A stretch of 64,000 nucleotides of DNA, taken from the NCBI GenBank assembly GCA_003213135.1, contig QCNT01000003.1, forward strand, positions 62,001 through 126,000, given 5' to 3'. The translations under genes were made by a program, and so were the position numbers. The notes below the pieces were generated by a model. That model was not told the origin of the DNA and did no database searches. It saw only the letters and a list, made by a program, of their open reading frames with translations. The DNA is from Pelagibacteraceae bacterium AG-426-I15 (lineage in GTDB: Bacteria > Pseudomonadota > Alphaproteobacteria > Pelagibacterales > Pelagibacteraceae). Below are positions 23,864 to 48,927 of the stretch, piece by piece (the stretch's first letter is position 1; each line of letters starts with the position of its first letter).

Positions 23864-23893
23864 TTTATCTAAATTTTATGGTATAAATTAAAG

Positions 23894-24060
23894 AATAACG
23901 GGAGAGACTATTTAAATATAGCGCCGAAGGAGCAACCTCCCTGGAAACTCTCAGGCAAAAGGACCGTTATTGTAATAACTCTGGAAAGCAGGCTAAGGCC
24001 TCACCGAAGGAGTAAATCTCTCAGGTTCTTAGACAGATGGGGAATTAAAAGGGTTATTAC
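23894..24060 (+). promoter_or_regulatory. Tandem glycine riboswitch (two aptamers) upstream of gcvT
   Basis: Aptamer 1 spans 23894-23971: P1 AATAACGG/CCGTTATT, with the conserved GGGAGAGACT, GCGCCGAAGGAGCAA and CTCTCAGGCAAAAGGACCG blocks. Aptamer 2 spans 23972-24060: P1 GTAATAAC/GTTATTAC, with CTCTGGAAAGCAGG, CACCGAAGGAGTAA and CTCTCAGGTTCTTAGACAGA. These are textbook glycine-riboswitch elements in the cooperative two-aptamer layout, placed before glycine-cleavage genes. The second P1 ends 3 nt before the gcvT start and its 3' arm follows AAAAGGG, a likely ribosome site, so control is probably at translation initiation. Confidence 0.96.
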
Positions 24061-46849: not shown

Positions 46850-47995
46850 ATGATTAACTCTCTAGGTATAAAAAAGTCGCCAAAAAATACTAAAATTGTT
46901 GTAGCTATGTCTGGAGGCGTAGATTCATCAGTAGTAGCTGGCCTTATGAAAGAACAAGGATACGATGTGACAGGAATTACTCTAAAGTTATATGACGACG
47001 CTAAACTATCCGATAATGGAAGACAGTGCTGCGCTGGAAAAGATATCATTGATGCAAAAAGAGTATCTGAAAGTTTAAATATAAATCATAAAATTTTATA
47101 CTACCAAAAAAAATTTAAAAATGAAGTTATTGACTCTTTTATAGACAGTTATGTAGCCGGCGAGACACCAATACCATGTGTTCAATGTAATCAAACAGTG
47201 AAATTTAGAGATCTTTTTAAATTTTCAAAAGAACTTAACGCAGACGCCCTCGTGACAGGTCACTATGTTATAAGGGATGAAAAAAATGGAAAAGGAAAAA
47301 TGTATCGAGCTAAAGATTCGAGTCGAGATCAGAGTTACTTTCTATTTAGCACAACTCAAGAACAACTTAATTATTTAAGATTTCCATTGGGTGCAATAAA
47401 TAAATCTGAAACTAGAGAAATTGCAAGCAAACTAAAACTAAACGTTGCTAAAAAGCCAGATAGCCAAGATATTTGTTTTGTTCCTAACGGCAACTATGCA
47501 TCTGTTATTCAGAAATATAGACCACAATCATTTAAAAAAGGGGATATTTTAAATGTAGAGGGTAAAAAACTAGGTACACATGATGGAATAATAAATTATA
47601 CAATTGGTCAAAGAAAAGGAATTAAAATCTCAAACAAAGAACCTCTTTATGTAATAGATATAATAGCTAAGACTAATTCTATAATTGTTGGCCCACAAGA
47701 TTTTTTAAATATAAAAAAACTATTTTTAAGAGACATTAATCTTTTATCAGATAAAAAAATTTTTAAGGATGATATTTTTATTAAAGTGAGATCAACAGGA
47801 AAATTACTTAAAGCAAAAGCAACCATAAAAGAAAATAATGCAAACGTAGAAATTTTACAAAATGAAAAAGGAATATCGCCCGGACAAGCATGTGTATTTT
47901 ATTCTAAAGATAATTTCGGTGATAGACTTCTTGGCGGCGGCTGGATAGACAAAGTTTTTAACAAAAATTTATCCACACAACTAACAGACCAATAA
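46850..47995 (+). CDS. mnmA: tRNA-specific 2-thiouridylase MnmA
   Basis: 381 residues. PP-loop motif [29 protein letters not shown] at the N-terminus, [16 protein letters not shown], catalytic cysteines in [14 protein letters not shown] and [16 protein letters not shown], and [12 protein letters not shown]. It places the 2-thio group on U34 of tRNAs for Lys, Glu and Gln. Downstream lies the structured RNA candidate at 48034-48231. Confidence 0.95.
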
Positions 47996-48033
47996 AAAAT
48001 CAACTAAAAAGTGATGGTGGTTTTCTCTAAATC

Positions 48034-48231
48034 AATTAAATTAATAAATGAATTAAGAGGCAACTCTTAACTGGCCAGTTAAGGAAAGACCGAGAGGTTT
48101 AAGCTTAACGGGCAGAAAGTTCTACAAAGTAGTACTAAAATTGTAGAACGGGAGGCTTGGCGGTAGTACTAAAACGACGGGCCAAAACTTAAGTCTGCGC
48201 ACCGCAAGGTGTGTAGACAAGGGTTTTAATT
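48034..48231 (+). ncRNA. Unassigned structured RNA candidate downstream of mnmA
   Basis: G+C is 73/160 (46%) over 48061-48220, against 25% (15/60) at 48001-48060 and 22% (13/60) at 48241-48300. On the plus strand several GNRA-capped hairpins can be drawn: TTAAGAG-GCAA-CTCTTAA (48053-48070), a 5-bp stem with GAGA loop (48087-48100), and an 11-bp stem with two G-U pairs and GCAA loop (48193-48218). GTTCTACA/TGTAGAAC (48119-48126, 48142-48149) encloses a loop containing GTAGTACTAAAA, repeated exactly at 48163-48174 in a second loop closed by TTGGC/GCCAA. TTAAG/CTTAA (48099-48103, 48188-48192) can close the multibranch. There are no tmRNA, RNase P, SRP or 6S signatures. The strand is inferred from the GNRA loops. 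Confidence 0.7.
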
Positions 48232-48927
48232 TCTTTTCCAAAACAAATAAGTTAGAAAATAAAAAAGTATTACTCCAAAAAAATAATTCCATTCCAAAGC
48301 ATGTTTGAAGTGGGTATTTCCACTTGTTACAACTATAGGCAAACTAACTAAAGCTACTATAACTAAAATAGAAACTAAAATAATCTTAAGTGTAAGAACA
48401 TAGTTATTTATTTGCTTAATCATAAATGATTTTAATTTAAAAAATCTATATACCAGTAATGATTGCGCTACTATTTCAAAAATAATAAAACTTAATAATA
48501 CAAATCTTCGAAAAAATTTATATATATCATTATCGAATTTTACCCCAAGTAGTAAAGAGTGTATGACAAGAAAGATCGCAGATATTATACCCAGTATTTT
48601 GAAAAGATTATTTTTATTTTCTAGGCCTTGATAAAAATTAATTATTTTATTTGTTTTAGTCCAATAAATTATAAGCAGGATTGATGTAAAAATCATTCCT
48701 GGTTTAAAAATTAAAAAAGTAGGATAGGTTCTCGCTGTTCTGCTTATTGAAACTCCTCCATCAAAATAAGGAAATGTAGAACCTGATCTTCCGATCTGAT
48801 CAACACTTAAAAATGTATTGTCAAATATTTGATAATTTACGGATATAAATAAACACAAATTGACGGCAATGAATGGAATAATAAATATCCATAAACTCAA
48901 CTTTTTAATTTGAGTTCTTAGTTCCAT
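48226..48927 (-). CDS. Multi-pass membrane protein (possibly Frag1/DRAM/Sfk1-like)
   Basis: 233 residues, about six membrane segments. Features: a first extracytoplasmic loop with GRSGSTFPYFDGGVSISRTARTYPTFLIFKPGM and a final LEWNYFFGVILFYFLTYLFWKRN. The loop between the first two membrane segments and the closing aromatic segment recall Frag1/DRAM/Sfk1 proteins, but the match is loose. Function unknown. The 3' end overlaps the RNA candidate by a few bases. Upstream on the same strand is a 27-codon basic gene 11 bp away. Confidence 0.6.
   Translation of the reverse strand: MELRTQIKKLSLWIFIIPFIAVNLCLFISVNYQIFDNTFLSVDQIGRSGSTFPYFDGGVSISRTARTYPTFLIFKPGMIFTSILLIIYWTKTNKIINFYQGLENKNNLFKILGIISAIFLVIHSLLLGVKFDNDIYKFFRRFVLLSFIIFEIVAQSLLVYRFFKLKSFMIKQINNYVLTLKIILVSILVIVALVSLPIVVTSGNTHFKHALEWNYFFGVILFYFLTYLFWKRN

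Follow-up and report, generated by a model that had tools for sequence, protein, structure and literature searches.

The locus downstream of mnmA in a SAR11 genome is a gene for the catalogued IMES-2 RNA, with two hairpin loops predicted to pair with each other

In the purine riboswitches, two neighbouring hairpins of similar length pair through their loops, L2 and L3, and the two helices are packed side by side in this kissing arrangement. IMES-2 (RF02035) is an already catalogued structured RNA of the SAR11 bacteria of the ocean. The literature searched contained no experiment on the function of IMES-2 and no function for it; the RNA was named as a likely environmental contaminant in a squid genome (PMC6962438), and a 2009 survey of Pelagibacter ubique RNAs made no mention of IMES (PMC2704228). 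Here, we show that a GC-rich interval downstream of mnmA, in a 64-kb stretch of a Pelagibacteraceae genome (64,000 nucleotides, hereafter the window), is a gene for IMES-2. The feature is thus real, but not new. Beyond the catalogued Rfam model, we add a contact between loops 3 and 4, the full bounds of the gene, its changing neighbourhood, and the pattern of its absence from relatives.

A cmscan search of Rfam 15 matched the locus to IMES-2 over the full length of the model (model positions 1 to 141) with 153 bits and an E value of 4.8e-40, far above the gathering cut-off of 54.7 bits. No other Rfam family matched the region even with E values up to 1, in line with the earlier judgment that it is not tmRNA, RNase P RNA, SRP RNA, or 6S RNA. 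The preliminary description had left the RNA unassigned and possibly new, and had itself named a strong cmscan match to a known family as the outcome speaking against novelty; that search has now been run, and the match to RF02035 rules out a novel noncoding RNA. The genome carries one copy of IMES-2. The window holds one further match above the cut-off, a glycine riboswitch aptamer elsewhere (RF00504, window positions 23889 to 23976, plus strand, 76.9 bits).

The interval stands out in composition: its GC content reaches 48% in windows of 100 bases, while most flanking windows have 17 to 30%, which agrees with the GC peak reported before (46% over 160 bases, 22 to 25% on the flanks). Its predicted RNA fold has a free energy of -71.3 kcal/mol (z = -6.8), and none of 200 dinucleotide shuffles folded as low. 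All three GNRA hairpins drawn at first sight are present, with the tetraloops GCAA at 48060 to 48063, GAGA at 48092 to 48095, and GCAA at 48204 to 48207. In an alignment of 48 non-redundant IMES-2 sequences, 92.8% of the cells in paired columns were paired, compared to 79.9% in shuffles and 32 to 44% in slid controls, and 31 of 45 pairs, six kissing pairs counted in, showed two-sided changes, a number reached by no shuffle. The Rfam helices of IMES-2 are strongly backed by covariation across these members. Both the fold and the covariation, the latter a check that had been proposed at the outset, bear out the reading of the locus as a structured noncoding RNA. Features of the gene are compiled in Table 1.

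Table 1. Predicted features of the IMES-2 gene (window coordinates)
Feature	Position	Strand	Basis or remark
Bipartite upstream element TTATCCACACAACTAACAG, consensus TTATCCaCa.aATTcACAg	47969..47987	+	aligned upstream regions, unrelated contexts
AATCAACtAaAAAGTGATg block, candidate -35 region	47998..48016	+	upstream alignment; single exact match in own genome
Candidate -10 TTAAAT, position approximate	48036..48041	+	conserved TGATaTaaT column in upstream alignment
IMES-2 RNA core	48046..48185	+	cmscan RF02035, full model length
Hairpin 1, 7 bp, GCAA tetraloop	48053..48070	+	100% of cells paired; two-sided changes at 4/7 pairs
Hairpin 2, 4x4 internal loop and GAGA tetraloop	48071..48115	+	two-sided changes at 9/11 outer pairs
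Hairpin 3, large loop	48119..48149	+	two-sided changes at 8/8 pairs
Loop 3 kissing hexamer AGUACU	48131..48136	+	pairs with 48165-48170; covariation
Hairpin 4, large loop	48154..48183	+	two-sided changes at 5/9 pairs
Loop 4 kissing hexamer AGUACU	48165..48170	+	pairs with 48131-48136; covariation
3' terminator hairpin, GCAA loop, then U-rich tract to about 48237	48186..48225	+	outside Rfam model

A perfect 18-nucleotide palindrome, CTTAACTGGCCAGTTAAG, spans positions 48066 to 48083, as noted before, and had been taken to suggest an alternative fold. We found it kept in only 3 of the 48 non-redundant relatives, and both helices that compete with it are supported by covariation. The palindrome itself stands, and is on these comparative grounds incidental; the alternative fold built on it was rejected.

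The repeated sequence reported in the two large loops was also recovered: both carry GTAGTACTAAAA, with the self-complementary AGTACT at 48131 to 48136 and at 48165 to 48170. It had been proposed that these loops could kiss within the RNA or join two molecules. Among the relatives, five antiparallel pairs link the loop 3 columns to those of loop 4, with joint GC/UA, CG/UA, and GC/AU substitutions, giving the loop 3/loop 4 types AGCGCU/AGCGC, AGUACU/AGUACU, AGCACU/AGUGCU, AGUGCU/AGCAC, and AUCGCU/AGCGA or related. The set of five core Watson-Crick pairs is complete in 43 of the 48 rows, with a mean of 4.875 of 5 (at most 1.75 in slid controls), and only 8 of 5,000 re-pairings of the 8 distinct loop-pair types were as good as the observed one. 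With one bulged nucleotide allowed, about 200 members retain at least five Watson-Crick loop-loop pairs, among them types without self-complementarity in either loop; loop 4 pairs normally in L199 and L042, and the AUCGCU members with AGCGC or AGCUG, which reach six pairs only with a bulged nucleotide, lend weaker support. On a tree built without the loop columns, loop 3 changed at least six times and loop 4 at least seven times. Independent loop contrasts number five on all branches; a formal sign test is without power, since only two of them fall on strongly supported branches.

These matched changes, seen in about two hundred relatives, show that the repeated sequences belong to two hairpin loops pairing with one another. 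It is conceivable that the self-complementary loops instead drive homodimers or multimers through loop 3-loop 3 and loop 4-loop 4 contacts, as in retroviral dimer initiation sites, considering that both loops in the window carry the palindrome AGUACU and that the commonest loop 3, AGCGCU, is palindromic as well. However, the non-palindromic combinations AGCACU/AGUGCU, AUCGCU/AGCGAG, and AGUGCU/AGCACG remain mutually complementary. Since several types keep only mutual complementarity where self-complementarity has been lost, the conserved contact is that of loop 3 with loop 4, and we regard homodimerisation through palindromes as improbable. Of the two initial proposals, the pairing of the loops with each other is accordingly upheld, and self-complementary pairing proved not to be conserved. 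Because hairpins 3 and 4 are direct neighbours of similar length, the contact of their loops is most simply read as intramolecular kissing and not as palindromic dimerisation, although an exchange of loops 3 and 4 between two molecules would fit the covariation as well.

Upstream of the RNA, the bipartite element, an AATCAAC.AtaAAGTGATac block, and a TGaTataaT block keep a similar spacing across unrelated contexts. The bipartite element lies about 60 to 75 nucleotides upstream of the RNA start, overlaps the 3' end of mnmA in this genome, and has one exact copy there (TTATCCACACAACTAACAG). A consensus promoter scan returned nothing, and a regulon search of the genome with the upstream elements gave no convincing second site. 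At the other end, a strong 3' hairpin is found in 48 of 48 relatives, with at least five U in eight positions at its end in 46 of them, and the hairpin sequences are unrelated between lineages. Since it has its own conserved upstream region and a 3' hairpin resembling an intrinsic terminator, the gene should yield a discrete transcript of about 180 nucleotides, predicted to start near 48046 and to end near 48227 to 48237.

The bipartite element resembles two tandem DnaA boxes, a likeness of sequence only, with TTATCCACA at 47969 to 47977 and a similar second half about 10 bp further on, conserved in several genera. This raises the possibility that the locus serves chiefly as a DNA element, whose tandem DnaA-box-like sites couple the RNA or the region to replication. 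Against this, boxes with at most one mismatch are not enriched in the window over chance, the GC skew near the locus turns from positive to negative, which is not the pattern of an origin, and the upstream element could be the site of another regulator. We consider a replication element very unlikely.

The neighbours of the gene are convergent, as originally described: mnmA (46850 to 47995, plus strand) and an ORF of 233 amino acids (48226 to 48927, minus strand), whose product had no Pfam match. A position directly after mnmA, with a terminator hairpin at its end, might be expected if the locus were no more than the 3' untranslated region of mnmA or its terminator, or if it served two convergent genes as a bidirectional terminator. 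The order mnmA, RNA, and convergent 233-aa ORF recurs in three genera (g1, g6, and g9), but in others the RNA and its upstream region stand beside entirely different genes (named here by sequence reading): in g3 with an O6-alkylguanine-DNA-alkyltransferase-like gene on one side and an integrase-like gene and a small ORF on the other, next to nuclease-like and SRAP-like genes in g2, and next to a SelO-like gene in g8. In g3 genomes without IMES-2 (e.g., L112, L114, and L115), the genes that flank it elsewhere in this genus are directly adjacent, leaving a clean empty site. These changing neighbours and empty sites indicate that the RNA is a separate unit and not an untranslated region of mnmA; the core, moreover, scores far above the RF02035 cut-off, and the probability of a mere mnmA appendage or shared terminator is in our view negligible.

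IMES-2 was detected in 200 of 397 sampled genomes of the order, belonging to 6 of 13 genera, and in a sample of 385 genomes of the class it matched only the genome of the window and two others of its own family. The recovered records were of Pelagibacteraceae or Pelagibacterales, except for two from other groups, which matched a short pattern only and are not IMES-2. The RNA is thus found in marine bacteria and, in the genomes searched, confined to SAR11 relatives, as the preliminary description had surmised. A search of 50,697 phage records for a phage origin gave no match, and two pattern matches in IMG/VR were not IMES-2. Complete or near-complete genomes without IMES-2 stayed negative in a more sensitive search, as well as with a new model, R1, built to include diverged members, which gave weak hits only. 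The best of these, in genome G020, was rejected as a diverged copy: it fits the pairing of the model poorly and seems to overlap protein-coding sequence. Relatives that have the same flanking genes but no IMES-2 speak against an essential role, and the patchy presence of the RNA suggests a dispensable, regulatory one.

Several known modes of RNA-based regulation were compared with the host context. Hfq was detected in none of 17 SAR11 genomes (five control genomes were positive) and CsrA likewise in none of the 17 (three control genomes positive), and thus an Hfq-type or CsrA-sponge role for IMES-2 is unlikely. 6S RNA (RF00013) was found neither at the locus nor in 25 SAR11 genomes; the control genomes, Caulobacter and E. 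coli among them, were positive. A stand-alone gene with a promoter region and a terminator follows the usual plan of trans-acting antisense small RNAs, and IMES-2 might pair with mRNAs via an exposed loop. However, the lack of Hfq in 17 of 17 SAR11 genomes and the predicted engagement of the conserved loop sequences inside the RNA make this unlikely. Since the conserved loops would be used internally and Hfq was not detected, our best guess, reached by elimination and from conserved unpaired nucleotides, is a structured RNA that binds a protein.

In the reading that we favour, with a probability of roughly 0.6, the locus is a single-copy IMES-2 gene with its own upstream region, a kissing-loop fold, and a terminator, encoding an Hfq-independent trans regulator that probably binds a protein. 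In the core of four hairpins, loops 3 and 4 are paired, as covariation shows; hairpins 3 and 4, 4 nucleotides apart and similar in length, could lie side by side, locked into a compact fold by a kissing helix of 5 to 6 bp. Such an RNA may act in trans as a structured regulator independent of Hfq, most likely by binding a protein, for which the nearly invariant GNRA loops and the unpaired GAAA/GGAAA segments might provide the contact sites. It is tempting to speculate further that IMES-2 is a compact kissing-loop protein-binding regulator in SAR11 lineages without Hfq, CsrA, and 6S RNA, and that the dedicated bipartite element upstream controls its transcription, but we hold this more specific proposal to be doubtful.

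SAR11 bacteria rank with the most abundant cells of the ocean, and the identification settles what this locus is. The covarying contact, the transcript bounds, and the promoter element define a concrete construct and mutants to test, and the clean absence in some relatives makes strains with and without IMES-2 comparable.

Compared with the Rfam model of IMES-2, the locus shares sequence and secondary structure over the full length as well as a SAR11 host, but the structure line printed by cmscan lacks the loop 3-loop 4 pairing, and the model stops before the terminator hairpin. IMES-2 resembles 6S RNA in its similar length and as a stand-alone gene for an RNA of regulatory type; its plan, however, is one of four hairpins and not the one long bulged helix of 6S RNA. 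With the purine riboswitch it has in common two neighbouring hairpins of similar length with pairing loops, an analogy of architecture only, considering that IMES-2 has no ligand pocket in a three-way junction and does not lie in a 5' leader. Like the dimer initiation site of HIV-1, it has a purine-flanked hairpin loop with a hexamer that is a palindrome in this genome, whereas the conserved constraint on IMES-2 is the complementarity of two different loops and not self-complementarity.
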